DNA from: Saccharibacillus sacchari DSM 19268
Lineage (GTDB): Bacteria; Bacillota; Bacilli; Paenibacillales; Paenibacillaceae
Assembly (NCBI RefSeq): GCF_000585395.1
Contig: NZ_KK073875.1
Span: forward strand, 1 to 64,000
DNA length: 64,000 bases
Direction: 5' to 3'
Part shown: one piece after another, positions 18,782 through 54,012 of the stretch
Numbering within the stretch: position 1 is the first letter of the stretch
Layout: the number at the start of each line of letters is the position of its first letter
Translations under genes and position numbers: made by a program
The notes under the pieces: model-generated
What the model saw: only the letters and a program-made list of their open reading frames with translations
Database searches by the model: none
Told to the model about the DNA's origin: nothing

Positions 18782-18983
18782 AAAAAGTCCTGTTCGGAAA
18801 ACCGGTAACCGAAGCTGCGGGAGAAATTCGTTCAAAACGCTGTCTCACTCATAAAGCCTTCGGCTTTACGAGTTCAAAGGCGTCAACATAGTGCTGAATG
18901 TTACCGCAGGTTTTCTTCGAAATCCTGTAATTCACCGAATTTCTCCCTCCGCTTTGGTTTCGGTTACGAACAGGGATTTTTCT
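18782..18983. repeat. Long palindromic intergenic repeat, copy 1 (insert subtype)
   Basis: An imperfect inverted repeat of about 200 bases filling the gap between argS and the SLH gene. The outer arms share CCTGTTCG, AACCGAAG and GGGAGAAATTCG; the inner arms share AACGC/GACGCC and a short CGTAAAGCC/GGCTTTACG tip. The right arm has an extra block of about 50 bases (18885-18935) that recurs in copy 3. The stretch 18824-18850 matches 26 of 27 bases of copy 2 (21192-21218). Confidence 0.75.
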
Positions 18984-19021
18984 GAGAGATAGGATACAGA
19001 GATAAAAGACAAACAAGACTA

Positions 19022-20725
19022 TTAAATCTCTTCCGGCGAACGAACGCCGAGTAAATTTAGTGCCCAACGAAGTCTCTCGGCGGCTAAGCGGGTCAGTTCC
19101 AGGCGAATCTCCTTGTCTCCTGCCGCAGCGCTGAGCACCTTGTTATGGTGGTAGAAGCGGTTGAACAGTTTAGCCAAATCTAGCGCGTAGCGCGCAATGG
19201 TCGAAGGTTCGTGGCGTTGTATGCCCCGGTGAAGCTCGGTTTGATGATCGCACAGCCGCTTGAGCAATTCCCAGGAAGCTTCGTCCCATTCGTATGACGC
19301 TGCCTCTCTTTTTAACATACCGAGGTCTGCCGTTCCTTCATTCACTTCGATTCCCTCTGCTTTTGCTTTCCGCAGTACGCTCCGCGCCCGGGCATGCGTA
19401 TACTGCACATAAGGTCCGGTCTCTCCTTCGAATTGCACGGCTTCTTCGATCGAGAAATTGATCTCGCCGATCCGGTTGTTTTTCAGGTCTCCGAACACGA
19501 TGGCTCCGATCCCGATCGCTTCGGCAACAGCGTCGCGATTTTGCAGTTGCGGATTTTTTTCTTCAATAATCGCAGCTGCTCGCGCTACGGCCTCGTCCAA
19601 TACCTCTTCCAAAAAGACGACTTTACCTTTGCGCGTCGACATCTTTTTCCCTTCGAACTTCATCAAGCCGAACGGGATATGCCGACAAGCCGATGCCCAA
19701 TCCCGTCCCATCTTGTGCAACACTGCGAAGACTTGCCGGAAATGCAGCGTTTGCTCCGCACCGACCACGTAGAGCAGCTTATCCGCTTCCAGCACGTCGT
19801 GTCGATAGATAGCAGTCGCCAGATCGCGCGTCGGATAGATCGTCGTTCCGTCGGATTTCAGGATCAGGCAAGGCGGCATGTCCGCTTCGTCCAGCCGGAC
19901 GACCTGCGCGCCTTCGCTTTCTTCCAGCAAGCCCTCGGCCCGCAGCTCGTCGACGACGGCTCCCATTTTATCGTTGTAAAAGCTCTCGCCCAGCACTTTA
20001 TCGAACGAAACGCCCAAGCGTTCATACATCCGGTCAAACTCGCTTAAGCTCACATCCACGAAATACCGCCAAAGACCCAATGCTTCTGCGTCTCCGCTTT
20101 CCAGCCTACGGAACCAATCCCTCGCTTCGGTCTCCAGCGTCGGATCGCTTTCGGCTTCGTCGTGGAATCGAACATAAAGGGACAAGGATTCGCGGATCGG
20201 TGCAGCTTTCAGGCGCTCTTCGCTGCCCCAACGCTTATAAGCCGTGATCTGTTTGCCGAACTGCGTGCCCCAATCGCCCAAATGATTAACGCTGATTGCG
20301 TGATAACCGGCTTCCGCGTACATTCGATACAATGCCGCTCCGATCACGGTTGAACGCAAATGACCTACGCCGAACGGTTTGGCAATATTGGGCGAAGACA
20401 TATCGATCACGACAGTCTCCCCCTTCGGAGCGACGGCCTGCCCTTCAGCTTGAACCAATAGCGCAGCCGAATGAAGAGAACGATCCAATCGGAAATTCAA
20501 ATAAGGTCCTGCTGCCGTGGCTTCTGTACCTTCCAACTCAAAACGTTCTGCCAAATCGGATGCGATCTGCTGCGGCGCTTTGCGAAGACTTTTCGCTAAT
20601 GCGAAGCAAGGAAAAGCAGCGTCCCCCAATTCCGAGTTCGGCGGCAGCTCCAACATAGACTCCGCCGTTCCTTTTTCCCATTCCAATAGGATGTCCAATA
20701 CTGCTCCGATCTGTGCTAAACTCAT
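19022..20725 (-). CDS. argS: Arginyl-tRNA synthetase
   Basis: A 567-residue class I synthetase that charges tRNA-Arg. The N-terminal additional domain begins LAQIGAVLDILLEW. The HIGH-type signature occurs as PFGVGHLRST near residue 120, in the SPNIAKPF context typical of ArgRS. The KMSKS loop reads GKKMSTRKG, and the anticodon-binding DALR domain ends the protein with RLRWALNLLGV. The ATG at 20725 is chosen because AAGGAGG lies upstream; an earlier in-frame start lies inside the terminator region. Expression is controlled by an arginine-specific T-box. Confidence 0.96.
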   Translation of the reverse strand: MSLAQIGAVLDILLEWEKGTAESMLELPPNSELGDAAFPCFALAKSLRKAPQQIASDLAERFELEGTEATAAGPYLNFRLDRSLHSAALLVQAEGQAVAPKGETVVIDMSSPNIAKPFGVGHLRSTVIGAALYRMYAEAGYHAISVNHLGDWGTQFGKQITAYKRWGSEERLKAAPIRESLSLYVRFHDEAESDPTLETEARDWFRRLESGDAEALGLWRYFVDVSLSEFDRMYERLGVSFDKVLGESFYNDKMGAVVDELRAEGLLEESEGAQVVRLDEADMPPCLILKSDGTTIYPTRDLATAIYRHDVLEADKLLYVVGAEQTLHFRQVFAVLHKMGRDWASACRHIPFGLMKFEGKKMSTRKGKVVFLEEVLDEAVARAAAIIEEKNPQLQNRDAVAEAIGIGAIVFGDLKNNRIGEINFSIEEAVQFEGETGPYVQYTHARARSVLRKAKAEGIEVNEGTADLGMLKREAASYEWDEASWELLKRLCDHQTELHRGIQRHEPSTIARYALDLAKLFNRFYHHNKVLSAAAGDKEIRLELTRLAAERLRWALNLLGVRSPEEI

Positions 20726-20760
20726 CTTTTTCTCCTCCTTGGTTGTACTGAAAAGCGCGC

Positions 20761-21088
20761 AAAAAAGCCCTCGTCTCATAAAGAGACGAGAGCTTGAATT
20801 CCCGCGGTACCACTCTTGTAGTCCTCTGCCTTTTCATGCTGAAATCGACATGGACCTCTCGATCGACGATAACGGCGCCGTATCCGGTCGACTCTACACG
20901 GAAGCAGCTGCTTACGCAACCCATTCGTTCAAATCGACGTCTCCCGGGTGCGCTTCTCCGATTGCCGCAGTGCCGGCTCCCACCTCCCCGGCTCGCTGTT
21001 CCCGCTATGGCTGATTCGGATACTCTCCCGTTCAAAGACATTGTCTGAATAAGATCAACTCCGCTGAAAAAAAGGACTGATCTGTCTT
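20761..21088 (-). promoter_or_regulatory. T-box riboswitch, arginine specifier (CGC), controlling argS
   Basis: The leader has the T-box sequence GTGGTACCGCGG (minus strand, about 20806-20817) and a terminator hairpin CTCTCGTCTC/GAGACGAGGG with a T-run (20761-20796). Stem I has the GGGAGAGTA element, and its specifier loop reads GAAG-CGC-A, placing the Arg codon CGC at 20950-20952, followed by a purine. Uncharged tRNA-Arg would stabilise the antiterminator and switch on argS. Confidence 0.93.
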
Positions 21089-21094
21089 TTTGCC

Positions 21095-21123
21095 ATTATA
21101 GAGGGTTGGGTAAAGAGAAGCAA
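21095..21123 (-). promoter_or_regulatory. argS T-box promoter
   Basis: TTGCTT (21118-21123), a 17-base spacer and a perfect TATAAT (21095-21100) on the minus strand. Confidence 0.75.
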
Positions 21124-21146
21124 GCGATTTTAATCGCTACAGGTTG

Positions 21147-21338
21147 CTCTTGAAAGTTACGTAGGCGGGGGAAGCGAGAAGACTGCGAGAAAAATTCGGT
21201 CAAAACGCTGTCTCACTCGGAAAGCTGCTGTGTAGTCATTCAGGGAGAAACTTTCCGAGTTCAAAGGCGTTTTGACCTGAATTTCTTTTTCCGTCTTCTC
21301 ACTTCCAGCTACGTTAGTATTTCTCGACACCTTTAAGG
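21147..21338. repeat. Long palindromic intergenic repeat, copy 2 (short subtype)
   Basis: The left arm (about 21154-21222) and right arm (about 21249-21317) pair over about 55 positions with few mismatches, closing on CGGAAAG/CTTTCCG. A 22-base block at 21169-21190 is identical to copy 4 (53836-53857). Both copies also share the tail containing TCGACAC and TTTAAGG. It sits directly upstream of the argS T-box promoter. Confidence 0.78.
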
Positions 21339-21450
21339 GATTCCGATCGCTGTATTCAGTATGATGTTCGAAAATGATTATTCGATCGAACCGATCATTC
21401 TTCCTCACATATAAAAAAACCGCTTCAGACTAAGCGATCTTTTGAAGTGA

Positions 21451-21655
21451 ATTTCTATTCACTTCGGAGCGTTAGGCGGAGGGAGAAATTCAGTGAAATA
21501 CAGGATTTTGAAGAAAACCTGCGGTAACATTCAGCATGATGTTGACGCCTTTGAACTCGAAAAGCCACTCCCTAGAAATACCGTCCAGCAGCTTTTCGAG
21601 TGAGACAGCGTACTGAACGAATTTCTCTCTCCGCCGCTCCCACGAATCGAAATTT
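21451..21655. repeat. Long palindromic intergenic repeat, copy 3 (insert subtype, reversed)
   Basis: Inverted arms GGAGCG..GCGGAGGGAGAAATTC and GAATTTCTCTCTCCGCCGCTCC enclose an inner CGAAAAGC/GCTTTTCG stem. Compared with the reverse complement of copy 1, the stretch 21478-21559 has only about five differences, including the 50-base insert. It abuts the stop of the cysteine-rich protein gene. Confidence 0.78.
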
Positions 21656-21998
21656 AAGCGGTCACAAGAACGCTCCGGCAGATGCTCGCACACTCCCGGC
21701 AGATTTCTACGCATTCTTGGCAATGTTCATGCTTGTGCTTCATGCACTCGTCGGCGCAAGCATCGCAAGCTTTTGCGACCAGTTCGCAAATTTCGGCCAC
21801 GAACGGGCTGTTGCGCGTCATCGCTTGAATCGCCACCGCGCACAGATCCGCGCATTCGCGGTCCAATCGCAGACACTCGCGCAATTCGAAAATATCAAGG
21901 CCTTTCAGGCTCGAAACATAGCTGACATTGCAGACGTTCATGCAGCGGATGCAGGCGTCGATGCACTCTTTATATGTAGTCACGGTCAATTGGGTCAT
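21654..21998 (-). CDS. Cysteine-rich four-helix-bundle copper-binding protein
   Basis: A 114-residue protein with 16 cysteines spaced as C-x3-C, C-x2-C and C-x6-C along helices (YKECIDACIRCMNVC near the start; HCQECVEICRECASIC near the end). This is the pattern of the Csp / DUF326 copper-storage family, in which inward-facing thiols line a four-helix bundle and hold many Cu(I) ions. A short His-rich turn (HKHEH) lies before the last helix. No signal peptide, so it is predicted cytosolic (Csp3-like). The start follows GGGAGGATCACAAC. A palindromic repeat begins at its stop. The next gene upstream encodes a metallochaperone GTPase. Confidence 0.88.
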   Translation of the reverse strand: MTQLTVTTYKECIDACIRCMNVCNVSYVSSLKGLDIFELRECLRLDRECADLCAVAIQAMTRNSPFVAEICELVAKACDACADECMKHKHEHCQECVEICRECASICRSVLVTA

Positions 21999-22095
21999 GT
22001 TGTGATCCTCCCGGTTGTAAGTTGAGGCTTGTCAGCCTTTGATGATCCTTATTACCCGAAAGATTACAAAATTGAAACCCTCGCCGCCTACTTGC

Positions 22096-23070
22096 TTATG
22101 CCTGCGCTTCTTCTGCTTCTAACGCTTCCAGCTTCTCGCGCAGCTCGGCGGCCGAAAAATGTTCGCCGATAAATACCGCCATATCATCCAACTTCCCCTG
22201 AGGCGTAACTTTAATGAAATCAAGTTCCCGGAAAGCATATTGGAACAAGAAACGGCTTGCCGTATCGGAGAACGTTAATAATCCTTTTGCCCGATAAATT
22301 TCACGCGGCAGCGAAGAAATCAGCGCTTCAAACCTTTCGCTATCTACCGGATTTTTAAAACGATGCGTATACGAAGTCACGTGTTCGTGCCCGGAACCCA
22401 ACATATCGAAGCGTCCGCCCGGCGTCTTTTTTAAAGGTCCATTCTCTACTCGCTCTGCCGCAAAGCCGATATTCAATAATGCTTCAAAGTCTACCTCGCA
22501 GCGAATCGCGCGGACTACGGGAGCATACGCATTCCATTCGGTGATCGCTCGCTCTAGCTCTTCGGCCTCCCGTTCACTGACCCGGTCCATTTTATTCAAA
22601 ATGATCACGGATGCGCAGCGAATCTGATCCTGCATCAGAGCATACGTGCGTCCTCCGCGATTGCGGTACATCTCCAGCAGATGAGCGGCGTCGGCTACGG
22701 TGATCAATCCTTTGATATCGATCCCCGCGTACATCGCCGTCTCGGTCGCGGAGTCCAGCAGATCGATCGGATTGGCAGCGCCGGTAGCTTCGATCAATAC
22801 TACATCCGGCCGATCCCGCTCCACCAGCATCGCCAGCTCTCCCGCCAAGTCTTCGCGCACGGTACAACAAATGCAGCCGCCCAGCAGCTCCGCTGTCGGA
22901 ACCTCGGAGTCGACCAGCATGCCGTCCAAATTCACGTCGCCCAGTTCGTTAATGATGACGCCGGGTTTTAAGCCTTGACCCTGCCAATAGGCAACTAACT
23001 TTTGAAGTAACGTGGTCTTGCCGCTGCCGAGGAAACCTGACAGCAAATATACCGGTACATCCTTATTCAT
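22096..23070 (-). CDS. CobW/YjiA-family GTP-dependent metallochaperone
   Basis: A 324-residue G3E GTPase. The P-loop GFLGSGKTTLLQKL is at about 12-25, the metal-binding CxCC motif occurs as GGCICCT near residue 64, Walker B/G3 is VLIEATGAANP and the G4 motif NKMD. The C-terminal CobW_C domain spans about 230-315. COG0523 proteins insert or deliver zinc, cobalt or iron. No Zur or Fur box was evident upstream, so the metal is undetermined. The start follows AGGAGGTATACATAG. Its neighbour on the same strand is a copper-binding protein 97 bases downstream, suggesting a metal-handling pair. Confidence 0.88.
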   Translation of the reverse strand: MNKDVPVYLLSGFLGSGKTTLLQKLVAYWQGQGLKPGVIINELGDVNLDGMLVDSEVPTAELLGGCICCTVREDLAGELAMLVERDRPDVVLIEATGAANPIDLLDSATETAMYAGIDIKGLITVADAAHLLEMYRNRGGRTYALMQDQIRCASVIILNKMDRVSEREAEELERAITEWNAYAPVVRAIRCEVDFEALLNIGFAAERVENGPLKKTPGGRFDMLGSGHEHVTSYTHRFKNPVDSERFEALISSLPREIYRAKGLLTFSDTASRFLFQYAFRELDFIKVTPQGKLDDMAVFIGEHFSAAELREKLEALEAEEAQA

Positions 23071-23202
23071 CTATGTATACCTCCTGTATGCGTGGATTGA
23101 AATGTTTAATCGCGAAGCGCGTGCCCGAGGATTGAGTCTACTACAGCAAGACGGGAAGTGCAACGAGCAAGCAGCAAAATCAGCGGGCAATCACAGATAA
23201 CG

Positions 23203-23233
23203 CAAAAAAAAGCATACGAAAAGATCGCATGCT
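23203..23233 (-). terminator. Terminator after the YhdH-type reductase
   Basis: AGCATACGA and TCGCATGCT form a nine-base stem with one mismatch, followed on the minus strand by a run of eight T. Confidence 0.65.
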
Positions 23234-23294
23234 CAAGCTGTCGATAAGGTCATATGTGAGATGGACTTCATAGACATGTTGATGAAGAACCTTA

Positions 23295-24299
23295 CTATTC
23301 CGCCGAAACCTTTACCAATTGCCGCCCTACCGCTTGTCCTTTTAAAATACGGTCAAACGCTTCAGGAAGTTGTTCAAGCGATACTTCATGTACCGCTTGC
23401 TCGAACAGAGATTCCGGCTTCCAATCCGTCGCCAGCTTGTCCCATACATCCAAACGTAACGGCAGCGGGCATTGAACCGAGTCGATTCCGGCCAGCGTCA
23501 CGCCGCGCAGAATGAACGGATGCACGCTTGTTCCGAAATCGCCGCCGCCTGTAAGGCCGGACAAAGCGAGTACGCCGCGGTAACGAATCGCTTTCAGACG
23601 TTCTCCCGTGCCTGCTCCGCCCACCGGATCGACGATTGCCGACCAGAGTCCTTTACCCAAAGGTCCTTTGGACGGAGTCTGGGCTTCTTCGCGGGAGATC
23701 GTGTGTGAGGCTCCCAAACGCTTCAACAACTCCCACTCCTGCTCTTTGCCGCTGCTTGCCGTGACTTCAAAACCCAGTTTCGCCAGGATCGACACCGCTA
23801 CGCTGCCTACCCCGCCGGATGCGCCGGTAACCAGGATCGGACCGCTTTCCGGGGTGATTCCCGCACTCAGAATCGCTTCTACGGACATGCCTGCCGTAAA
23901 GCCCGCTGTACCCAAAATCATCGCTTCGCGCAAAGTCAGCCCTTCCGGAAGTTTAACGAGCCAGTCTGCCGGTACGCGCGCCTGTTCGCTGTAACCTCCA
24001 AAATGCGATACGCCTAGACCATAGCCCGTGCACAACACTTGATCGCCGATCGCAAAACGCGAATCTTCGCTAGCGACAACCTCGCCGGCCAAATCGATTC
24101 CCGGAATAAACGGATACTCGCGTACGATCCGACCTTCCTTGATACTGGCCAACCCATCTTTATAGTTGACGTCGGAATAACGAACCCGAACGAGGACTTC
24201 ACCTTGCGGCAGGTCGTCGGTTTCGATTTTCTTCACTGCTCCCGTTACGCCGGTTTCTGTTTCCTCCAGCCAAAATGCACGAAATTTCTCTGTCATCAT
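23295..24299 (-). CDS. YhdH/YhfP-family quinone (acryloyl-CoA-type) reductase
   Basis: A 334-residue medium-chain dehydrogenase/reductase without catalytic zinc. The N-terminal GroES-like domain has VRVRYSDVNYKDGLA and PFIPGIDLAGEVV; the NADPH site is GASGGVGSVAVSILAKLG near residue 155; the typical LSGLTGG block follows. This subfamily includes AcuI acryloyl-CoA reductase and YhdH quinone reductases, so the real substrate is uncertain. The ATG at 24299 is preferred because GGAGGCGATC lies just before it. Single-gene unit with its own terminator. Confidence 0.88.
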   Translation of the reverse strand: MMTEKFRAFWLEETETGVTGAVKKIETDDLPQGEVLVRVRYSDVNYKDGLASIKEGRIVREYPFIPGIDLAGEVVASEDSRFAIGDQVLCTGYGLGVSHFGGYSEQARVPADWLVKLPEGLTLREAMILGTAGFTAGMSVEAILSAGITPESGPILVTGASGGVGSVAVSILAKLGFEVTASSGKEQEWELLKRLGASHTISREEAQTPSKGPLGKGLWSAIVDPVGGAGTGERLKAIRYRGVLALSGLTGGGDFGTSVHPFILRGVTLAGIDSVQCPLPLRLDVWDKLATDWKPESLFEQAVHEVSLEQLPEAFDRILKGQAVGRQLVKVSAE

Positions 24300-24451
24300 G
24301 ATCGCCTCCACACTTCGTTTCTGATTGATCTCTATAAGAACGGATCGCCTCCGCTCTCTCCTTTTCCATCCTACTCCAACACCCGGCGCGATGCCAGCAA
24401 GAAGCTCACACTCGAACTCAGATCTTCGTGACGCAGTGCCATTCTCGACGC

Positions 24452-24483
24452 AAAAAGGCGGTCGATACGAGATCGACCACCTT
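24452..24483 (-). terminator. Terminator of the 2-oxoacid oxidoreductase operon
   Basis: AAGGCGGTCGA pairs with TCGACCACCTT (one mismatch) around a seven-base loop, with a T-run on the minus strand, 29 bases after the stop at 24512. Confidence 0.75.
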
Positions 24484-24511
24484 CCATGTATTCGATAGCA
24501 TTGCGAAACTT

Positions 24512-26818
24512 TTAAAGATCCGGGTGCTCATGTCTAGCTTTCAAACGGCTCCAACGCCGCTCCACTTCGCGTTCGAACTCATGAAGTGCATCTTCATTTT
24601 CAGATTTCAACAAATGGCGTGTCTTGCCCATTCGTTTGAGCCATTCCGAGACGGGAACTTTTTTGTTTTTGTCTTCAGGGTTATAGGTGATCGCCGTAAC
24701 GCCCTGCTCGACTTCGTACAACGGGAAGAAGTTCGAGCTGACGGCGGCATCCACGATATTGGCACCTTGATCGTCCGGCGACATCCAGTTGAGCGGACAG
24801 GCGATCAGAATCTTGCCGTACACCAGCCCGACATTTTGAGCGTACCATTGCGCTTTCGCCGCTTTTTTAACCAAATCCTGCGGGAAAGCTTCACTGCCTG
24901 TAAAGACATACGGAATACCGGTAGCGGCCATAATCTGAGCGGTATCTTTATGGTGGAACGACTTGCCTTGCTGCGTCTTCCCGACGCCGGAAGTCGATGT
25001 GCGGTGTCCCAGCGGCGTGGAGTACGACATTTGAGCGCCGGTATTCATGTACCCCTCATTGTCGTATTCGACGATGATCATGCGATGCCCGCGCAACGCG
25101 GCGCCGATCGCCGGGCCCATGCCGATATCCATGCCGCCGTCGCCCGTAACCATCACGAATGTGAAATCTTCCTGTAGGCCGAGTCCTTCGAACTCGCCGC
25201 GGCGCTTGCGTTCCCAGAACATTTCGACCAGACCGGACAATGTGGCCGCGCCGTTTTGGAACAGGTTATGGATATACGTCGCTTTGTGGGACGAATGGGG
25301 ATAGCCCGTCGTGGTTACCATCGCGCATCCGGTATGGAATAACGTGACGATATCGCCTTCGATTCCTTTAAAGAACAATTCAAGTCCCGAGAAAATGCCG
25401 CAGCCCGGGCAAGCCCCGTGTCCGGGAGCAAGGCGTTTCGGCTTTTTCGTCAACGAACGCAGCGGCGGAATCTTGACGGCCAGTTTCCCTGTTTCTTCAT
25501 TTGGCGTAACGGTGATCAGACCTGTTTTCAAATCCTCAAAGTTTAAAGGCTTGAGCAGACGCTTGGGTGCTTTCGTTGGATCGCCAGGTGTATGACCATA
25601 GAAATCAAACGGAATGTTGACGGTCTGCTTCTCTGCTGCCTCAATCGCCAATTCGAAGAAGTGACGTCCGTCTTCGGCCCCGAACTCTTTGCCTCCCAGA
25701 CCATATACACGGCCAATAACCTGCGTATCGCGATTACCGTGCGTGAACAGCGCAGCTTTGATTTCGTTCAACATATTGCCGCCGTGCGCGCCGCAAGCGT
25801 CGGCACGATCGCCTACCGTGATCGCGCGGACATGTTTGAGCGCTTCGGCAATCTGGAGCTGCGGGAAAGGACGGATCATATTCGGAGCAACCGCCCCGGC
25901 TTTGATTCCCTGCAAGCGAAGCTCGTCCACGACGTCCTTAATGGTTTCCGAAGCCGAATTCATCACGAATACGGCAACTTCGGCGTCATCCATCCGGTAG
26001 AGATCAAGCATCGGGTAGTCGCGTCCGGTCAATTCTTGATATTCGGCGGCGATTCGTTCGAAGACGCCTCCCGCACGATACATCGCTTCGGACATCTGAT
26101 AGCGGTTATTGATATAATCCGGTTCATTCATGTAAGGTCCGATCGTAATCGGATTTTCACGGTCGAGCGCATTGGCGAAGCCTTCGGGCGTATACTCTCC
26201 GACAAACGCCATGACGTCTGCACGATCTTCAAACGTCTGCACGCGGCGCTTTTGGTGGGAAGTGAAATAGCCGTCGTAGGCCACCATCACCGGAAGCCGA
26301 ACTTCCGGATCTTCGGCAAGCTTAAGCGCAATCAGGTTCATATCATATACAGCCTGAGGATCGCGGCACATCAGAATCGGCCAACCTGTATTCAGGGCGA
26401 AATAAAGGTCGGAATGATCCCCGTGAATATTTAACGGCCCGGAGACCGAACGGCAGACCAGATTCAATACCATCGGGAAACGAGTGCCCGATTGAACCGG
26501 CATCTGCTCCATCATATACAGATAGCCTTGAGCGCTTGTCGCGTTAAACACGCGCCCCCCTCCTGTCGAAGCGCCGTAGCAGATCCCGGCAGAGCTATGC
26601 TCGCCGTCCGACGGCACGAGACGAATACCGTGTTTGCCTTCCGTTTTCATCAAATCCAGATGCTGCGCCACTTCTGTCGAAGGCGAGATCGGGAAATAAC
26701 CCATAATATGATAGTCGATCTGGTGAGCGGCATAGGCAGCCATCTCGTTGCCTGATTCATAAACCATCCGCTGCTTCACGCGGCCTGGAACAATTTCTTT
26801 GGAATAATCGATTGCCAT
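24512..26818 (-). CDS. 2-oxoacid:ferredoxin oxidoreductase, fused alpha-beta subunit
   Basis: A 768-residue fusion of the alpha (residues about 1-440) and beta (about 470-768) subunits of a pyruvate:ferredoxin-type oxidoreductase. The alpha part has GYFPISPSTEVAQHLD and the SGPLNIHGDHSD loop. The beta part has the cluster and TPP region: GACPGCG, HTGCAMV and GDGGMDIGMG, with the DNEGYMNTG motif of PFOR beta. CPGC, the HTGC cysteine and a later Cys (LIACPLNW) can ligate the proximal 4Fe-4S cluster. A coiled, charged tail ends the protein. The start follows AAAGGAAGGG. It is 28 bases after the gamma-delta gene. Substrate (pyruvate or another 2-oxoacid) is not settled. Confidence 0.88.
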   Translation of the reverse strand: MAIDYSKEIVPGRVKQRMVYESGNEMAAYAAHQIDYHIMGYFPISPSTEVAQHLDLMKTEGKHGIRLVPSDGEHSSAGICYGASTGGGRVFNATSAQGYLYMMEQMPVQSGTRFPMVLNLVCRSVSGPLNIHGDHSDLYFALNTGWPILMCRDPQAVYDMNLIALKLAEDPEVRLPVMVAYDGYFTSHQKRRVQTFEDRADVMAFVGEYTPEGFANALDRENPITIGPYMNEPDYINNRYQMSEAMYRAGGVFERIAAEYQELTGRDYPMLDLYRMDDAEVAVFVMNSASETIKDVVDELRLQGIKAGAVAPNMIRPFPQLQIAEALKHVRAITVGDRADACGAHGGNMLNEIKAALFTHGNRDTQVIGRVYGLGGKEFGAEDGRHFFELAIEAAEKQTVNIPFDFYGHTPGDPTKAPKRLLKPLNFEDLKTGLITVTPNEETGKLAVKIPPLRSLTKKPKRLAPGHGACPGCGIFSGLELFFKGIEGDIVTLFHTGCAMVTTTGYPHSSHKATYIHNLFQNGAATLSGLVEMFWERKRRGEFEGLGLQEDFTFVMVTGDGGMDIGMGPAIGAALRGHRMIIVEYDNEGYMNTGAQMSYSTPLGHRTSTSGVGKTQQGKSFHHKDTAQIMAATGIPYVFTGSEAFPQDLVKKAAKAQWYAQNVGLVYGKILIACPLNWMSPDDQGANIVDAAVSSNFFPLYEVEQGVTAITYNPEDKNKKVPVSEWLKRMGKTRHLLKSENEDALHEFEREVERRWSRLKARHEHPDL

Positions 26819-26846
26819 AATACCCTTCCTTTCCCGTCAGTAGGGA

Positions 26847-27845: not shown

Positions 27846-27900
27846 ACCTTTTCCCCCTCCGTATTTTGTTTTAAATTTAACAATTTACATGAGGTGTCAC

Positions 27901-27916
27901 TGTAATAAATATCACA
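27901..27916 (-). promoter_or_regulatory. FNR/CRP-type palindrome upstream of the oxidoreductase operon
   Basis: TGTGATATTTATTACA on the minus strand fits TGTGA-N6-TCACA with one mismatch. A possible -10 (TAAATT, about 27873-27878) would put transcription start near 27866 and the site centre near -42, the class II activator position. Confidence 0.45.
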
Positions 27917-28010
27917 CGCCAAGTTTGAAAAAGGTCTGCGAAAGGCCTTATTTCGTCCCACTTTCGCCTTAACCGCGCGGTTTGGTTCATTAAAACTGCT
28001 AACACGTAAA

Positions 28011-28042
28011 AAAGCGGGATCTCCCTAAGAAGATCCCGCTTT
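28011..28042 (-). terminator. Terminator after pncB
   Basis: AAAGCGGGATCT and AGATCCCGCTTT form a perfect 12-bp stem with an eight-base loop, 67 bases beyond the pncB stop. Confidence 0.85.
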
Positions 28043-28108
28043 TCCCTATATTTATCGAATCGAATTCCTGATCCGCATTTCGATATTCCCTACTATCTTG
28101 TCGACGCT

Positions 28109-29575: not shown

Positions 29576-29669
29576 ACTGTTCCCTCCTCCGATACCGCCT
29601 AACAGACGGCCGCGCCTCCGTTAACGGAGCGCGGCGTGCCTTGCAGCAATAAGTGTTGATCCGTCAAAG

Positions 29670-32282: not shown

Positions 32283-32305
32283 CTTGTCGTGGCTCCCGCC
32301 GCCCT

Positions 32306-42565: not shown

Positions 42566-42579
42566 CCGATACTTTGTAT

Positions 42580-44242: not shown

Positions 44243-44304
44243 TCCGTTCATCCCCCCTCGTTGTATTCAAAACCGTCCGGATAGCCGGATACGGTTCAGA
44301 TTCC

Positions 44305-45072: not shown

Positions 45073-45238
45073 GATCCATCTCTCTTCCGTGTCACGCGCA
45101 ATTTTGAACCCTGAATCCAGGTTAAGGCTAACCCTTCAACCTTCGTCTAATGATATTAAAAATGCCGTTTAAACGCAAGAAACAGATTCTTAATCTTTAT
45201 GAGCGTCCATAAATCCAGCAATAGACGAAGATTTTCGC

Positions 45239-46015: not shown

Positions 46016-47292
46016 GCGCCGCGCACGATGGATACCGCGTGGCGATCCCAACGAATATGTTCGCGAAGGCGGGCATTAACCTCGTCCAGCGTCATGTTTT
46101 CATAGAGTTCCAGCACCGTAAACAGATCGCCGCCCGCAAACTTGTAACGGGTGAACTCGTGCGCAATGTTTTCGGGCGAATTGAGCATGCGCAGGTAACC
46201 GCCGATTTTCTTTTTGCGCGCGCGTTCGAAAGCTTTCTCGTCAAAGCCGGTCTCCGCCAGCTTAGCCGCTTCTTCGCGAATGCGTTCGATCAACAGATCC
46301 GGATCGCGCGTATCGCCGCCGATCACGGAGAACGCATACTCCGGCGTTGCGCGGAAATCACCGCCGAAACCGTCCGTGATCAAAGCCTCTTCGTACAGCT
46401 TTTGATACAGCGGCGTACTGTTTCCGAGCAGCAGATCAAGCATCACTTCCGTCGTCAGATCCAGCTTGACCAGCTCCGTTCCGCTTACCTTCGGCGCCGG
46501 GTCTTTGAACCCGAACAAGCACTTGGGCAGCGATACCGGAAGATTCAACTCTTTGCGCTCTTGGGACACTTGTTCCGGTTCCGGGTCGAAGAAACGTTCG
46601 ATTTCGGCTTGCGAACCGTAATTTTTTGCATCCTGATTGCGTTTGACCTGCTCGATTACCTTCTGGGGATCAACGCCGCCTACGACAAACAGCAGCATGT
46701 TGCTCGGATGGTAAAACGTATTGTAGCAGGCATACAGCGTTTCCTTGGAGATTTCACTGATCGATTCGACCGTGCCCGCAATGTCGATATGGACGGGATG
46801 CACGCTGTACAGCGCTTCGATCAACCCGTAATACACGCGCCAATCCGGATTATCCTGATACATCTGGATTTCCTGGCCGATGATGCCTTTTTCCTTTTCC
46901 ACATTTTCGTCGGTGAAATACGGGTTTTGCACGAAATTGATCAGCGTTTCCAGGTTTTCTTCGATCTTTTCGGTCGCCGAGAATAGGTAAACCGTCTGAT
47001 CGAAACTCGTAAAAGCGTTAGACGAAGCCCCTTGCGTCGAAAATTTCAGGAAAACGTCGCCGTCCGGTTCTTCAAAGACTTTATGCTCCAAAAAGTGGGC
47101 GATACCGTCCGGTACACGATGCTCTTCCTGCCCGGCCACCCGGAATCGGTTATCGACCGATCCGTAGTTCGTCGAAAACGTCGCGTACGTCTTCTGGAAA
47201 CCTTCCTTCGGCAGCACGTAGACGCCGAGCCCGTTATCCAGTTTTTCATAATACAAAGTTTCTTGCAGATGCTCGTAGACAATGCGCTCCAT
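46012..47292 (-). CDS. ymfH: M16 family zinc peptidase, catalytic partner (YmfH)
   Basis: A 426-residue M16B peptidase with the inverted zinc motif HxxEH as GIAHFLEHKVFEE near residue 67 and a distal Glu in the following helix. It is the active half of a YmfF/YmfH pair; its partner lies two bases upstream. Such pairs in Bacilli resemble heterodimeric processing proteases for small peptides. It overlaps ymfI by four bases. Confidence 0.92.
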   Translation of the reverse strand: MERIVYEHLQETLYYEKLDNGLGVYVLPKEGFQKTYATFSTNYGSVDNRFRVAGQEEHRVPDGIAHFLEHKVFEEPDGDVFLKFSTQGASSNAFTSFDQTVYLFSATEKIEENLETLINFVQNPYFTDENVEKEKGIIGQEIQMYQDNPDWRVYYGLIEALYSVHPVHIDIAGTVESISEISKETLYACYNTFYHPSNMLLFVVGGVDPQKVIEQVKRNQDAKNYGSQAEIERFFDPEPEQVSQERKELNLPVSLPKCLFGFKDPAPKVSGTELVKLDLTTEVMLDLLLGNSTPLYQKLYEEALITDGFGGDFRATPEYAFSVIGGDTRDPDLLIERIREEAAKLAETGFDEKAFERARKKKIGGYLRMLNSPENIAHEFTRYKFAGGDLFTVLELYENMTLDEVNARLREHIRWDRHAVSIVRGA

Positions 47293-47294
47293 CG

Positions 47295-48581
47295 TTATTC
47301 CCCCTCTTTTCCGGTCAAAAAGTAAATGGTGTCGAGTCGGAAATTCTGTGCCGCTTCGGCTACCTGCTGCGTCGTCATGCTCTCCACTTGCTCGATCAAC
47401 TCGGACACCGCGCGTTCCCGTCCCGACAGACGTCCTCCGAAGTCATGATGAATCATCTGGAAAGCGGAATCGCGAATTTCGCGCAGATCGTTACCCAACA
47501 TCGCTTGAGTTTGGCTCAGTTCCGTTTCCGTGATTTCGCCGGCTTTCATCGCGTCGAGCTGCACGCGGATGATGTCGAGCGCGCGGTCGTAGTTGCCGAT
47601 TTCGATACCCGATTGAATCGTGCCGAACGCCTTATGCGGCTCGTATTGCGACGACGCATAGTAGGCCAGGCTCGCTTTTTCGCGCACGTTTTGGAACAGC
47701 TTGGAGTGCGGGTATCCGCCCAGTACACCGTTATATACCAGTGCTGCCGCGTAACGGTCGTCCGCATAATCGATCGAGGTCTTGAACCCGATGTTCAATT
47801 TGCCTTGCGAGACGTCCATCACTTCTTTGACGATATGCGGATTGCCGACCCCTTCGTTTTTCTCGCTTCCGGCGTAGGTGTATGGGGAATGTCCCGGTCC
47901 GGCTACGTCGAAATGCTTATGCACGATGCTCCGTACTTCATCCAATGTCGTGTCGCCTACCACATAAAGATCCAGCGAAGCTTCCGACAACCATTTGCGG
48001 TAAGAGTCATGCAGTACTGCCGCGTCGAGATTTTCCAGCGCTTCGCGTTTGCCGAGAGCGTTCAAGCGATAGGATTCGCCCGCGAACATCTCCTCCACGC
48101 AGCGCACGCCTGCATAACGGGCTTTGTTGTTGATGATCGCGTCGAGCTTTTTGCGTACGTTATCGCGTTCGGCATCAACGAATTTAGGCTTGAACACGCC
48201 ATTTTCCAAAGCAGGTCGGGTAAGCGTCTCGCCGAGGAATGCCAGCGAACTCTCCAAAAGCGGCTCATCCGTGCTTACGAAAGCGTCATTAATCGTATCC
48301 ATACGGAACTGCACGATCTGACTGCCGTCTCTTTTGTATACATCAAAGCCGAATCCGGCTCCGTACAGCTCTTCCAAACGCTCGCGGAACAAGATCGTCT
48401 CCGGGTAAGAAGCGTTGCCCCGGCGCAGCACAAAAGGTGTCAGCGCAATCGGCGTTACGGTTTCTTCCTGAAGCGGGGCTCCGGCATATAAGGAAACGGC
48501 GAACGTTTTGAAGCTCTTGGTCGGCAATACATGGATACGAATCCGACCTTCTGCTGCCCGTTCAAATCCTGGGGTACTCAT
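47295..48581 (-). CDS. ymfF: M16 family peptidase homologue without zinc motif (YmfF)
   Basis: A 428-residue M16-fold protein that lacks HxxEH: the corresponding region reads ALTPFVLRRGNASYPE. The later substrate-binding R-Y-type segments are kept. It is probably the non-catalytic subunit that completes the chamber with YmfH. The start ATG at 48581 follows AAGGAGTGATA; another ATG one codon earlier is possible. First gene of the ymfFHI unit. Confidence 0.9.
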   Translation of the reverse strand: MSTPGFERAAEGRIRIHVLPTKSFKTFAVSLYAGAPLQEETVTPIALTPFVLRRGNASYPETILFRERLEELYGAGFGFDVYKRDGSQIVQFRMDTINDAFVSTDEPLLESSLAFLGETLTRPALENGVFKPKFVDAERDNVRKKLDAIINNKARYAGVRCVEEMFAGESYRLNALGKREALENLDAAVLHDSYRKWLSEASLDLYVVGDTTLDEVRSIVHKHFDVAGPGHSPYTYAGSEKNEGVGNPHIVKEVMDVSQGKLNIGFKTSIDYADDRYAAALVYNGVLGGYPHSKLFQNVREKASLAYYASSQYEPHKAFGTIQSGIEIGNYDRALDIIRVQLDAMKAGEITETELSQTQAMLGNDLREIRDSAFQMIHHDFGGRLSGRERAVSELIEQVESMTTQQVAEAAQNFRLDTIYFLTGKEGE

Positions 48582-48743
48582 CATTATCACTCCTTAGACT
48601 TTTGGCGAATTCCGCTCGAATATTTGATGCCCATTGACTCTTTAACCATTCTTGACTATTTTATACTACCGCGAAGAGCGGAATCAACTTATGAGGGGCG
48701 CGAAGCAACGAACATCGGTGAAAAGGAATCATTGAACGGATAA

Positions 48744-48801
48744 AAAAAGACTTCGACGCTGCGAAGGAAATCGGGTTCCTTTTGCAGACATCGAAATCTT
48801 T
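48744..48801 (-). terminator. Terminator after spoIIIE
   Basis: A long hairpin: AAAAAGACTTCGACG...GAAGGAA pairs with TTCCTTTTGCAGACATCGAA and the following TCTTTT with a few mismatches; T-run on the minus strand. Confidence 0.7.
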
Positions 48802-48807
48802 TCTTTG

Positions 48808-51603
48808 TTACGAATTTGCCGCTGCGCGACTCGCCTGGAGCTGTTCGATCGAAATCAGCACCTCACGCGGCTTGCTGCCCTCGTACGGGCCGACGATACC
48901 GCGGGCTTCCATCGAGTCGACCAAACGCGCGGCGCGCGTGTAGCCGACTCTCATGCGCCGCTGAAGCAATGAGACGGAGGCTTGCTTGGCTTCCACCACG
49001 ATTTGTACCGCCTGATCATACAAATCGTCTAACACTTCTTCCGGTTCAGCGGCGTTGTCGTCGATTTCCGGAACCAGATCCGTATCGTACTCCGCTTCCG
49101 CTTGTCCGCTGCAATAAGCCACGATCTCTTCCACTTCGTTATCGCTTAAGAAAGCGCCTTGCACCCGGACCGGCTTCGACGCGCCCATCGGCATAAACAG
49201 CATATCGCCGCGGCCGAGCAGTTTTTCCGCGCCGCCCATATCGAGGATCGTGCGCGAGTCGACCTGCGAGGATACGCCGAAAGCGATCCGGGACGGGATA
49301 TTCGCTTTGATGACTCCCGTGATGACATCGACCGACGGTCGCTGCGTCGCGATGATCAAGTGAATCCCTGCTGCACGCGCCATTTGAGCAAGACGGGCGA
49401 TCGCGTCTTCCACATCGCCGGCTGCAACCATCATCAAGTCCGCCAACTCGTCGACGATGACTACGATATACGGGAGAACGGCGGATGGATTGTCTTTCAT
49501 CAGCGTGTTATAGCCTTCGATATTGCGCGTTGACGATTTGGAGAAAAGTTCGTACCTTTTTTCCATCTCGACCACGATTTTTTTCAAAGCAAGCGATGCC
49601 CGTTTAGGATCAGTGACGACCGGTGCAAGCAGATGCGGAATCCCGTTATAAATATTCAACTCGACCATTTTGGGATCGACCATCAGGAACTTGACTTCGT
49701 CCGGCTTCGCTTTGTACAAGATGCTGGCGATAATGCCGTTGATGCAAACCGACTTACCCGAACCGGTTGCCCCGGCCACCAGCAAATGGGGCATCCGGGC
49801 AAGGTTGCCGACAATCGTCTGACCGGAAATGTCTCGGCCGAACGCTACGGTGAGCTTCGAAGGCGCATCGGCGAACACGGAGGTGTCCATGACTTCGCGC
49901 ATGGTGACCATCGAAACTTCGTTGTTCGGCACTTCAATCCCGATCGCCGACTTGCCCGGAATCGGAGCTTCCATCCGAATGTCTTTGGCCGCGAGCGCCA
50001 ACGCGATATCATCGGTCAGACCGACGACTCGGCTGACTTTCACGCCGACGTCGGGCTGGATCTCGTAGCGGGTAACGGCCGGACCGCGCACTACTTCCAG
50101 CACGCGCGCCCGGACGCCGAAGCTTTCGAGCGTCGTTTCCAGCTTATGCGCCGTCTGCATATAATCCGCTTGATTGGCTGATGCGTTCTCGTCTTCTTTC
50201 GGCAAGGCAAGCAATTTCAGCGGCGGCAGCTTATACGGCTTGGGCGGCGGCTTGATCGGGGCTTCCGCAAGCTCGCCGGCTGTCGCCGGAATCGACGGGT
50301 CTCCTTCGGGAAGCACGGCTTCTGCACCGACTGAGGAAGCTGCTTCTATAGGATTGATAACGCCATCGGCAACCATTGGATTTGCGGCCGAACTCGACAG
50401 CGCTATCGATTCTACAAAATCATCGGCGTCATCGTCTACCGTTAATGTCGAACCCTGATCAGACTCGGCTGTACGAGACTTCTCGGATCGGATATGTTCG
50501 AAGAAATCACGAATAATCGGGCCTTGTCGATCTCGATCGGGCAAAGCCTCGCTTGGAGCAGCAGTTGAATCAGGCTGAATTTCACTCGGTTCAACTGAAG
50601 TTTTTAAAGCTTCATTCGTTTGTCGTTCTTTCAGCTCGCTAGGTACCCGGTAAACGCCCGTAATTTTAAAACCTTCGCGCTGCGGCAAATCTTCCTGTTC
50701 TTCCGATTCTGCTGCAAGCTTTTTCTTTCGACCTCTCAAAACTCCAGTAAGGTTACGGTTTGCTTCTTCCGCTTCCTCTCCCTCGGACTTCGAAAAGGCA
50801 GCGAGGCGTTTCTCTTCAGCTTCCGCTTTTTCTTTTGCCCGAATTTCAGCTTTCTTTTCCGCTTCGATCTTGCGCTGCTGCGCAACTTGCCGTTCTTCCT
50901 TCAGACGCTCTCCGGCGGAACGCGCGGCTTCACCTGCTTTGCGACGAATCATATTCATCAAGTCGACGTACGACATCTGCGTGATCAGCATAACACCGAT
51001 AATCAGCAGCACTCCTGAAGCCAACTTCGCTCCCGTCATGCCGACCATCAGATACAAAAGAGACAGGAGCAATGCTCCGAAGTACCCTCCGCCAATCGGT
51101 CTTAAAAAGGGAGTGATCTGGCTCATTTCCGCGTTCGGCGCAATTAGGGAGCGGTGCAGATCTCCTTGTGCAGCAGACAAAATCCCGCCCGCGCTCATCT
51201 GTCCTTCCAGTTCGATATGACTCTGCGCTTCGCCGATCGAAAGCATGAGCACGCCGGCCAGGGAAACCAACAACAGGCCCGACTTGCGCGCACTCCATCC
51301 GTAAGGCAATCCTCGTCGAATCATGAGATATAATCCGGTATAAATACCGAGCACAGGAATCACCGCATAAGCTTTTCCCAACACTAATCCAAAACCTGCG
51401 GACAGCAGTTGACCGATAAAAGCTTGTCCCGACAACCCGATCACCGATAACGTAATCAGCACAATGCCGTAAATTTCGTATTTAAGGGCGCTTGCAAGCG
51501 AACCCGGTTTCTTTTTTTTGTTTTTTGTTGATGTTGTGCGGCTGCCGCTAGAACGGGCTTTGCTGCTGCCAGTCCTGGTCCCCGTACTTTTTTTCTGAGC
51601 CAC
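48808..51603 (-). CDS. spoIIIE: FtsK/SpoIIIE DNA translocase
   Basis: A 931-residue septal DNA pump. After a basic Ser/Thr tract come four or five membrane helices (about 40-190), then a long Glu/Lys/Ala-rich linker (about 215-480) with no clear fold, then the motor. Walker A is [11 protein letters not shown] near residue 615, Walker B IVVIDELADLM, and the C-terminal gamma winged helix ([19 protein letters not shown]) reads DNA polarity. The start is the GTG at 51603, preceded by GGGGGGATCGAA; earlier codons have no binding site. The linker is longer than in B. subtilis SpoIIIE (787 residues). Confidence 0.95.
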
Positions 51604-51795
51604 TTCGATCCCCCCCGGCTTTGACACACTCTTCCCATAATAGCACATAAGTTCGCCAAAAGGCAGAGAAAAACCTTCTTCTATAATCGACTTCCATAAG
51701 CTTGTTGGATCTCATGTATGATGCGACAAATCGTTGGTTTAGATTCGAACGCCTGCTTCTTATCCAGTCGATCCTATGTAAGATTTTTCGCGCAT

Positions 51796-51835
51796 AAAAA
51801 AACGGCGACGTTGCAAAATATTTCGCAACGTCGCC
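51796..51835 (-). terminator. Terminator after the RNase J gene
   Basis: GGCGACGTTGC and GCAACGTCGCC form a perfect 11-bp stem with a ten-base loop and seven T on the minus strand, 24 bases after the stop. Confidence 0.88.
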
Positions 51836-51858
51836 TAAGTTAAGCTTTGAAATTTTGA

Positions 51859-53541
51859 TTAAACTTCCATAATGATCGGCAGGATCATCGGACGACGACG
51901 CGTTTGGTCGAACAGGAAGCGTCCCAGCGAATCTTTGACGCCCGATTTGAGCGAAGCCCATTCGTTGACGTTTTCGCTCATCAGACGTTGCAGCGTGCTG
52001 GTCACGACGCGATTTGCTTCATCCAGCAGTCCTTCCGATTCGCGCACGTACACGAAACCGCGCGAGATGATGTCCGGACCGGAAACGATGCGTCCGTCCT
52101 GCTTGCTGAGCGTAACCACGACAACGAGAATGCCGTCTTGCGACAACAGTTTGCGGTCGCGCAGCACGATATTGCCCACATCGCCGACACCCAATCCGTC
52201 GATCAAAACGTTGCCGGAAGGTACTTTGCCTGCTTTGCGCGCTTCGCCGTTCTGGATTTCAACGACATCCCCGATATCCACCAGGAAGATATTATCCGGT
52301 TCGACGCCGACGGATTCACCCAGTTGCGCGTGCTTGCGCAGCATGCGGTATTCGCCGTGGATCGGGATAAAGAATTTCGGACGCATCAGGTTCAGCATCA
52401 GCTTCAGTTCTTCTTGGGAACCGTGACCGGATACGTGAACGCCTTTGTTCGATCCGCTGTAGATGACTTCCGCACCCAAACGGAATAGAGCATCGATTGT
52501 GCGGCCGACGTATTTTTCGTTGCCCGGTACCGGCGTTGCCGCGATGATAACGGTATCGCCTGGCAAAATGTCCACTTTACGGTGCGTGGAACGCGCCATG
52601 CGGCTGAGTGCCGACATCGGTTCGCCTTGGCTGCCCGTGCAAAGAATCGCCACGCGGTCCGCGCCGATGCGGTTGATTTCTTCCGGCTCGATGATCATGC
52701 CTTCCGGAATCTCCAGATAGCCGAGTTCCGAAGCAATCGCCACCACGTTAACCATGCTGCGGCCGATGACGACGATTTTACGATCTGTCGCGATTGCGGC
52801 ATTTACGACCTGCTGAATCCGGTGCACGTTGGAAGCGAACGTCGCCACAACGACGCGTTGGCGAGCTTTACGGAAGATATCTTCCAGTACGACGCCTACG
52901 CTGCGCTCCGAAGGCGTGAATCCAGGCTTCTCGGCATTCGTGCTGTCCGACAGCAGGGCGAGTACGCCTTTTTGGCCGATTTCCGCCATGCGTTGCAGAT
53001 CAGCGAACTGATCATTAACCGGCGTATGGTCGAACTTAAAGTCGCCTGTATGAACCACGTTGCCTTCCGGCGTTTCGATGCATACCCCGACGGAGTCCGG
53101 AATGCTATGGTTGGTTTTGAAGAACGTGGCGGTCAGCGAGCTGCCCAGCTTCAGTTCCGAATCTGCGTTGATCAAAATGCGCTTAGTTTCGCCAAGCAGG
53201 TTTGCTTCGCGGAGTTTGTTTTCGATCAGGCCAAGCGTGAGTTTTGTTGCATACAAAGGCACGTTCAAATGTTTCATTACGTAAGGCAGACCGCCGATAT
53301 GGTCTTCGTGTCCGTGCGTAATGATGATCGCTTTTACTTTATCGCGATTTTCCGTCAGATAGCTGATATCCGGAATAACAAGGTCAATGCCGAGCATATC
53401 CTCTTCCGGGAATTTCAAGCCTGCATCGATGACAACGATATCATCTTCATATTGCACGACATACATATTTTTACCAATTTCGCCGACGCCGCCAAGAGCG
53501 AAGATACTTAACTTCTCCGCATTATTATTTTTCTTTGCCAA
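51859..53541 (-). CDS. rnjB: Ribonuclease J (RnjB position)
   Basis: A 560-residue metallo-beta-lactamase/beta-CASP nuclease with endo- and 5'-to-3' exonuclease activity. The zinc motif THGHEDHIGG is at 75-84, HTGDFKFDHTP follows, the beta-CASP region holds VATFASNVHRIQQV, and HVSGHGSQEELK ends the catalytic core. The start is a TTG at 53541 (AGGAGGTTTACCTATC before it), restoring the family start (M)AKKNNN. Position between dapA and spoIIIE points to the B. subtilis rnjB locus, but A and B paralogues are hard to tell apart. The tepA gene usually next to it is absent. A leader of about 230 bases precedes it. Confidence 0.93.
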   Translation of the reverse strand: MAKKNNNAEKLSIFALGGVGEIGKNMYVVQYEDDIVVIDAGLKFPEEDMLGIDLVIPDISYLTENRDKVKAIIITHGHEDHIGGLPYVMKHLNVPLYATKLTLGLIENKLREANLLGETKRILINADSELKLGSSLTATFFKTNHSIPDSVGVCIETPEGNVVHTGDFKFDHTPVNDQFADLQRMAEIGQKGVLALLSDSTNAEKPGFTPSERSVGVVLEDIFRKARQRVVVATFASNVHRIQQVVNAAIATDRKIVVIGRSMVNVVAIASELGYLEIPEGMIIEPEEINRIGADRVAILCTGSQGEPMSALSRMARSTHRKVDILPGDTVIIAATPVPGNEKYVGRTIDALFRLGAEVIYSGSNKGVHVSGHGSQEELKLMLNLMRPKFFIPIHGEYRMLRKHAQLGESVGVEPDNIFLVDIGDVVEIQNGEARKAGKVPSGNVLIDGLGVGDVGNIVLRDRKLLSQDGILVVVVTLSKQDGRIVSGPDIISRGFVYVRESEGLLDEANRVVTSTLQRLMSENVNEWASLKSGVKDSLGRFLFDQTRRRPMILPIIMEV

Positions 53542-53773
53542 GATAGGTAAACCTCCTAATAAAGTCATAGTCTATTTGTTTTATAAAAGTTGGACGTTTG
53601 CTATTTTTCCGGTTTTTGGCATAGCTCGAACAAGGACTTTCATCGTTGATGATTCGAGAGGGCTTTTTGTACGCAAAAGCCGCTCGATATCATCCGATCA
53701 AGCCGATGCACGAACCTCCGTCAAATATGGTTCGTGTTGTTTTTCTATAACCCGCACCCAGTCACTTGCGTCC
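53542..53773 (-). other. Long structured leader of the RNase J gene
   Basis: From the promoter to the start codon about 230 bases are transcribed. Clear hairpins are CACGAACC/GGTTCGTG (53710-53737, perfect 8 bp) and GGCTTTT/AAAAAGCC (about 53664-53685). No coding frame with a binding site is seen. It may be a target for autoregulatory cleavage. Confidence 0.5.
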
Positions 53774-53803
53774 ATTATACATGAATGAAAACCCAAAATA
53801 CAA
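53774..53803 (-). promoter_or_regulatory. rnjB promoter
   Basis: TTGTAT (53798-53803), an 18-base spacer and a perfect TATAAT (53774-53779) on the minus strand. Confidence 0.6.
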
Positions 53804-53828
53804 GTCGAAAGCCCTGTCATTCCCTCTT

Positions 53829-54012
53829 CGGGGGCGGGAAGCGAGAAGACTGCGAGAGAAATTCGTTTCGGTCGCGTGTTGAAATCGAGAAAATGGATTG
53901 AAACTTTGATTGGTTTTTCTCGATTTCAAAGGCGATCGCTATCGCTCCTACACTGAATTTCTCTCTCCGTCTTCTCGCTTCTAGTTACTTTTGATATTAT
54001 CGACACTTTAAG
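53829..54012. repeat. Long palindromic intergenic repeat, copy 4 (short subtype)
   Basis: Arms 53829-53892 and about 53917-53987 form a long imperfect hairpin closed by TCGAGAAA/TTTCTCGA. The 22 bases at 53836-53857 are identical to copy 2, and the tail with ATCGACACTTTAAGG also matches copy 2. The inner part has diverged (GATTTCAAAGGCG in place of GAGTTCAAAGGCG). It fills the gap between the dapA terminator and the rnjB promoter. Confidence 0.75.

Follow-up and report, generated by a model that had tools for sequence, protein, structure and literature searches.

Hairpin-forming repeats of Saccharibacillus: a modular family with one subtype that is probably moved by an IS1182-family transposase and duplicates its stem-loop target

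The first 64,000 nucleotides of the genome of Saccharibacillus sacchari DSM 19268 (hereafter the window; the genome is a single contig of 6,075,237 bases, the 6.08 Mb chromosome) contain four long intergenic palindromes which, judged by sequence comparison, belong to a family of roughly 300 modular hairpin-forming repeats amplified within Saccharibacillus. We consider it probable that these are non-autonomous elements, that one subtype (A) is moved by a transposase of the IS1182 family with duplication of the whole stem-loop at which it inserts, and that parts of the core are exchanged between copies. A first reading of the window, made from the letters alone and referred to below as the sequence-only reading, had taken the palindromes for a family of four, a number which proved far too small.

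The tip-side motif of these repeats, TTCAAAGGCG, occurs 318 times (171 + 147) in the S. sacchari genome, against 14 occurrences of the reversed control, and 305 times (control 19) in S. endophyticus (G006), the species with the best match to the S. sacchari ArgS (92% identity) among the 80 loci kept, from which very near records may be left out. With a profile derived from 30 copies, the first 800 kb of S. sacchari were found to contain 35 non-overlapping copies and the syntenic 800-kb stretch of S. endophyticus 38; a looser motif count over the same stretches gave 43 and 47, respectively. In a family-wide count over 148 genomes, the 14 belonging to Saccharibacillus had 10 to 318 occurrences and the other 134 at most 46 (control 15). 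DNA similarity to the second palindrome of the window (copy 2) was found in eight of 14 other Saccharibacillus genomes, most often in G013 (42 matches) and G001 (27), and clear copies are present among the loci from G001, G008, G012, G013 and G014. G011 has 110 motif occurrences and a single DNA match to copy 2.

The anatomy of the repeats was read from the 73 copies in the two 800-kb stretches. Subtype A is an element of about 180–190 bp with TGTCGAGAAA ends, the outer arms of which read TGTCGAGAAAG...GGAAGCGAGAAGAC and mirror; both inner arm motifs of this subtype are present in nine of the 35 S. sacchari copies and one of the two in a further copy, the corresponding numbers for S. endophyticus being nine and two of 38. 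The remaining copies, which do not possess A arms (25/35 and 27/38), are of subtype B or other, and among these a AAGTCCTRTTCG-like left end was recognized in 17 of the 25 and 14 of the 27. The inner module is of two kinds, alpha (21) and beta (11), in the 32 S. sacchari copies which could be parsed; three copies in this species and one in S. endophyticus could not. Above the inner module stands a variable tip stem, and small inserts of about 40–47 nt (gamma1 and gamma2) are found in the internal loops of either arm.

The ends of subtype A are shared with an insertion sequence (IS). Matches to the PF13751 transposases were found in five of 16 Saccharibacillus genomes, S. sacchari itself having five, and two of its loci (L259 and L262) carry nearly identical ISs of 1558 bp which run from TGTCGAG to CTCGACA. 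TGTCGAGAAA is present at both ends of these ISs and at both ends of the subtype A miniature inverted-repeat transposable element (MITE), and the ISs terminate in TGTCGAGAAAC, of which TGTCGAGAAAG is the MITE counterpart. Both transposase frames are assigned to IS1182 by NCBIfam NF033551, and one close relative of this IS occurs in each of G011 and G003. Terminal repeats of this type were not found in subtype B. Based upon the common terminal repeat, (CAGRS)TGTCGAGAAA, subtype A is most likely mobilised in trans by the IS1182-family transposase. The IS of L262 lies at 6055494–6057051 of the S. sacchari contig (G000:C1), about 18–20 kb before its end, which on a circular chromosome would put it directly before the window. 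No IS1182-type match was found inside the window, where no transposase family search was made.

The second line of evidence comes from the flanks. Elements were sought by both ends, with no more than two mismatches in each and more decayed copies dropped, in 57 S. sacchari loci, 30 loci of other species, five IS loci and the two 800-kb stretches, and this yielded five ISs and 35 MITEs, 40 distinct elements in all. For 20 (four of the ISs and 16 of the MITEs) the best direct repeat of the flanks exceeded the 99% level of 1560 mismatched pairings, with scores of up to 31 against a null maximum of 12; an earlier count using other criteria had placed nine of 22 elements above the 99% level. MITE and IS both sit in terminator-like hairpins and show the same target mode, duplication of the stem-loop, with the limit that not every one of the 20 repeats folds. 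Twelve fold at -6 kcal/mol or below, versus 2.1 expected from neighbouring windows, and the others are mostly short remnants.

Eight of the flank repeats are exact over 20–31 bp, and each contains a hairpin: L258 (31 bp), L264 and L307 (26 bp), L295 and L311 (22 bp), L259 (21 bp), L262 and L300 (20 bp). The predicted stem-loop covers the whole exact repeat in L258, L295, L259 and L262, as well as in L264, and falls short of it by one base in L311 and L300 and by six in L307. At least four A residues in the eight bases preceding the left repeat were found in six of these eight cases, and at least four T residues in the eight bases following the right repeat likewise in six. L264 (single-frame transposase at about 1356532–1357713 of G000:C1) is another IS of the IS1182 family, the ends of which are different (CAGACTGTTGACAAA / TTTGTCGACAGTCTG), and because it too is bounded by an exact 26-bp hairpin duplication this mode of duplication is not peculiar to one IS. 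Furthermore, at three A sites (S. sacchari 177578, S. endophyticus 615817 and 695074) one hairpin alone stands in the sister species at the place where the occupied site has the order hairpin, element, hairpin. No comparable empty site was found for the copies at S. sacchari 21130 and 788900, where the target gaps are 3.7 and 2.1 kb. Together with the IS1182-family ends, the duplicated hairpins and the single-hairpin sister sites uphold for subtype A the non-autonomous mobile element which the sequence-only reading had listed among its possibilities.

A mechanism which would account for these sites is that the target is recognised as a cruciform and that gap repair copies the whole stem-loop, leaving a hairpin on both sides of the element, so that termination could survive in both directions. 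A count of terminators near subtype A showed no excess (one upstream and one downstream of 10 copies in S. sacchari; one and two of 11 in S. endophyticus), in windows which start 60 nt from the profile match and in which the adjoining hairpins are therefore unseen. In Staphylococcus the IS1182-family elements IS1272/TnSha1 target stem-loops, often terminators, without sequence specificity, and with IS1272 the stem-loop sequence is lost and no duplication arises, according to the available portions of PMC4923244 and PMC5678879. The Saccharibacillus elements share with them the transposase family and the stem-loop target; they differ in that the stem-loop is duplicated rather than removed, and in that non-autonomous copies number in the hundreds. 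They look like the pathway b drawn as a possibility in PMC5678879, where the whole stem-loop would become duplicated if joining took place at the 5' foot.

A number of observations weigh against the mobilisation of subtype A by this transposase with duplication of its target. A-run upstream and T-run downstream occur together in only four of the eight exact cases, and 20 of the 40 elements, the IS of L257 included, have no significant duplication. The three single-hairpin A sites are not polarised by an outgroup. Subtype B, the majority of the copies in S. sacchari (25/35), is left unexplained by this transposase. Neither S. endophyticus, with its 305 motif copies, nor G001, which has young A copies with exact duplications, yielded a PF13751 or close transposase match; a single degraded DUF772 piece was found in the former. 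In S. sacchari itself the reading frame of the IS transposase is split in two (about 533–1893 in L262, and likewise in L259). The frames of L262 part at an A6G-like run, and L257 and L258 have similar open-frame lengths; this may represent either a programmed frameshift or a decayed gene.

Compensatory changes in the arms, which the sequence-only reading had suggested looking for, are seen in the tips of both inner module types and in the alignment of 30 beta copies. Among 28 distinct beta tips the Watson-Crick fraction is 0.81 versus 0.59 (maximum 0.70) with shuffled partners, and pairing at positions 1–12 is almost constant and involves up to four pair types; for 46 alpha tips the values are 0.75 and 0.60 (maximum 0.65). 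In the beta alignment 18 of 35 consensus pairs show two or more Watson-Crick types, and 93% of the cells are Watson-Crick versus 21–30% when the partners are slid by two to three columns, the 93% being favoured by the derivation of the structure from the same alignment. The alpha alignment has only 13 consensus pairs, and one invariant T-G column contributes 67 of its 73 G-U cells. The outcome that the sequence-only reading had regarded as fatal to it, four copies only and no covariation, is not what was found: copies number about 300 and their stems covary strongly. The covariation is compatible with selection on the fold, templated correction of the palindrome, or exchange of whole tips.

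Comparison of orthologous copies shows that tops of the hairpins have been replaced. Tips could be parsed in 24 ortholog pairs. The ortholog is the best match in 11 of these, three are ambiguous, and in 10 the tip is closer to the best paralog in both genomes, the paralog pool consisting of the 800-kb stretches and one of the 10 (635296) being only marginal; gamma inserts differ in eight of the 24. The pair S. sacchari 670441 and S. endophyticus 661795 has a lower stem, GGGAGGGATTCGTT/GAATCCCTCCC, which is unique in both stretches, yet one copy has an alpha and the other a beta interior; at the borders about 7–8 nt are in common with the usual lower stem. Alpha and beta are also swapped, between arms which can be aligned, in S. 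sacchari 535139/S. endophyticus 526614 and S. sacchari 324161/S. endophyticus 327109, and S. sacchari 649255/S. endophyticus 640794 represents a tip replacement. Since such pairs have a common lower stem and different interiors, a hairpin can keep an inherited base under a new top. Tops thus appear to be exchanged between copies, and the core parts involved (alpha/beta inner module, tip and gamma inserts) would pass from one dispersed copy to another, perhaps through conversion or template switching.

One might alternatively suggest that the swapped tips, and subtype B with them, result from insertion of an IS1272-like kind, in which a hairpin element enters the hairpin of another and replaces its top. 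IS1272 does replace target stem-loops in the accounts available from PMC4923244 and PMC5678879, and the exchanges do keep the lower stem and replace everything above it, with the 7–8 nt in common at the borders in one case. We nevertheless regard this origin as doubtful: the left ends of B copies are of one kind in the 17 and 14 copies noted above, so that the outer stem is mostly element rather than target, and the exchange is accounted for just as well by conversion or template switching. A more ambitious proposal, which we advance tentatively and do not favour, is that a transposase of the IS1182 type recognises cruciforms of terminators and makes its joins at the 5' foot of each of the two stem-loops, and that hairpin tops are exchanged or nested between dispersed copies by the same structure-guided chemistry. 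If so, the duplication would be the hairpin itself and termination would survive, and orthologous palindromes would keep their base and receive a new top.

Subtype B has the same core as A with other, AAGTCCTRTTCG-like, ends. In element orientation a terminator-like hairpin lies downstream of 11 of the 25 S. sacchari B copies and upstream of none (p 0.001; background 34 of 224 intergenic windows), the windows extending roughly 60–220 nt beyond the profile match; for the 27 S. endophyticus copies the numbers are seven downstream and two upstream. Subtype B stands, therefore, beside terminators in a fixed orientation. At three B-type sites the core is absent from one species; these sites are unpolarised, and because the B left end persists at two of the sites without a core, it is as likely that the core was lost as that it was gained. 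Decayed B-type hairpins outside the profile matches were observed on the minus strand at S. sacchari 244292 and S. endophyticus 248444, the latter with a gamma1-like mini-hairpin where the inner module would be.

Copies which neighbour one another at 100–700 bp are arranged tail to tail in all seven S. sacchari and all seven S. endophyticus pairs, several of which are orthologous and which often surround a terminator; those of S. sacchari include 21130/21544, 173421/173645, 534903/535139, 649018/649255 and 775228/775479. With genes called by a simple dicodon script, 89 S. sacchari copies (35 from the first 800 kb and 54 from 56 other loci) were assigned to 56 tandem, 29 convergent and four divergent gaps. 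Relative to the 475 gaps in the first 800 kb which measure 30 nt or more (330 tandem, 72 convergent and 73 divergent), convergent gaps are enriched (Fisher p 2.4e-4) and divergent gaps depleted (p 0.004). Of the 56 copies in tandem gaps, 36 are nearer to the end of the preceding gene than to the beginning of the following one.

This location at gene ends, and the fact that the stems covary while blocks in the internal loops are conserved, would be expected if the hairpins owed their retention to a role of the folded RNA, or of single-stranded DNA, at the 3' ends of genes (protection of the mRNA, processing by RNase III or termination in both directions, for instance), with mobility a secondary matter. 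We think this explanation unlikely. In the 56 tandem cases orientation with respect to transcription shows no significant preference (23 the same, 33 opposite; p 0.23), and the 30 beta copies have 20 G-U and 13 A-C cells, which shows little of the asymmetry that selection on one RNA strand would produce. Palindrome correction or whole-tip exchange, moreover, could yield the same covariation. Covariance models of Rfam at gathering score reported nothing over the window except 16S rRNA, and membership of a known Rfam family was rejected.

Hundreds of intergenic palindromes, with paired copies in inverted orientation, also recall a REP/REPIN population moved by a RAYT (Y1) transposase. We hold this to be highly improbable, and the REP-like alternative of the sequence-only reading fails in the RAYT sense: Y1_Tnp (PF01797) has no match in S. 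sacchari or in G006 and is found in G010 alone of the 16 Saccharibacillus genomes, and a RAYT/REPIN identity was rejected on the lack of a match in S. sacchari itself. Target duplications are not expected from Y1 transposition, and subtype A has them.

In the window itself each of the four palindromes folds better than its dinucleotide shuffles (z of -8.7, -6.4, -6.4 and -7.3 for copies 1–4; none of 200 shuffles as good in each case), at the places where the sequence-only reading had put them, and all four lie between called genes (simple gene caller), as it had claimed. Their relatedness was likewise confirmed by pairwise alignment: copies 1 and 2 are 88% identical across 43 nt, copies 1 and 3 are 93% identical across 91 nt in inverted orientation, and copies 2 and 4 are 91% identical across 35 nt. 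Its two subtypes exist; they are defined by the outer arms and not by the extra block of copies 1 and 3, and its division combined two independent features. That the block is a genuine module is seen from the copy 1 ortholog of S. endophyticus, which lacks it and is otherwise nearly identical; the block is a separate small insert, gamma2, and does not define a subtype.

Copy 1 (18782–18983, plus strand) is of subtype B with an alpha inner module and an outer terminator-like stem, AAAAAGTCCTGTTCG...CGAACAGGGATTTTT. Its tip-side motif, located by motif search, is at 18873–18882 (plus strand), and its gamma2 insert of about 47 nt, itself hairpin-like, occupies the 3' internal loop at 18884–18930 (plus strand; borders by eye). 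Copy 2 (21145–21329, plus strand; ends by eye) is of subtype A with an alpha module; its right end TTTCTCGACA is intact and its left end (TGCTCTTGAAAG) decayed. A hairpin, AGCGATTTTAATCGCT, flanks it on the left at 21123–21138, and a possible partner lies on the right at 21339–21351 (both plus strand and by eye), so that the flanks may represent a decayed target duplication with agreement at 10 of 13 positions (GATTTTAATCGCT / GATTCCGATCGCT); the case is outside the statistical set of 40 elements. Copy 3 (21451–21655, minus strand), which forms a tail-to-tail pair with copy 2, is of subtype B with an alpha module and a gamma2 insert at 21499–21544 (minus strand, by eye) resembling that of copy 1. 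Copy 4 (53829–54005, plus strand) is of subtype A with a beta module; its right end is ATTATCGACA, its left terminal repeat is not recognisable, and an ortholog is present in S. endophyticus. Elsewhere in the window, positions 1–327 (minus strand) hold a partial 16S rRNA gene (Rfam), and the stretch 20760–21060 (minus strand), upstream of argS, contains CCGCGGTACCACTCT, a sequence characteristic of T-box leaders (reverse complement); no T-box was reported there by Rfam at gathering threshold.

Among known repeats, the EFAR elements of Enterococcus faecalis are modular palindromes of about 170 bp, of several sequence types, inserted at stem-loop targets. Compared by this description, they resemble the Saccharibacillus family as modular, stem-loop-targeting palindromes, and differ in that most of the target stem-loop is deleted rather than duplicated; we know of no transposase linked to them. 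REP/REPIN, NEMIS/Correia, BOX and ERIC, again compared by description, have other ends and targets, and for REP/REPIN the S. sacchari genome is without a RAYT gene match. They too are short intergenic hairpin repeats, and NEMIS has an internal block of about 50 bp which is present or absent, according to the available part of PMC2229807. EFAR are named as MITEs in the part available of PMC3733652. MITEPye1 of Paracoccus yeei, as described in the available portion of PMC11578231, is a MITE with IS1182-family ends which folds into a long stem-loop, as does subtype A; it differs in having one to three copies per chromosome and 4-bp direct repeats, and that portion reports no duplication of a terminator hairpin. 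A search of open-access titles and abstracts, which is weak evidence of absence, found neither a Saccharibacillus hairpin family nor an IS1182 element duplicating whole hairpins. MITEs with IS1182-type ends and modular stem-loop-targeting palindromes are already known, then, from MITEPye1 and EFAR; new here are the duplication of the hairpin target, the number of about 300 copies and the replacement of hairpin interiors.

Hairpin-targeted insertion of the IS1272 type has been described as destroying the target hairpin, and the Saccharibacillus elements present duplication in its place, the alternative drawn in a model. Such duplication would explain how many copies can stand in terminators without broken termination. 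The ISs, the young MITEs with exact duplications, the decayed ones and their orthologs form a natural data set for cruciform recognition. Finally, as the replaced tips make plain, a long bacterial palindrome can be a mosaic, and covariation in repeat hairpins should therefore not be read directly as selection on RNA.

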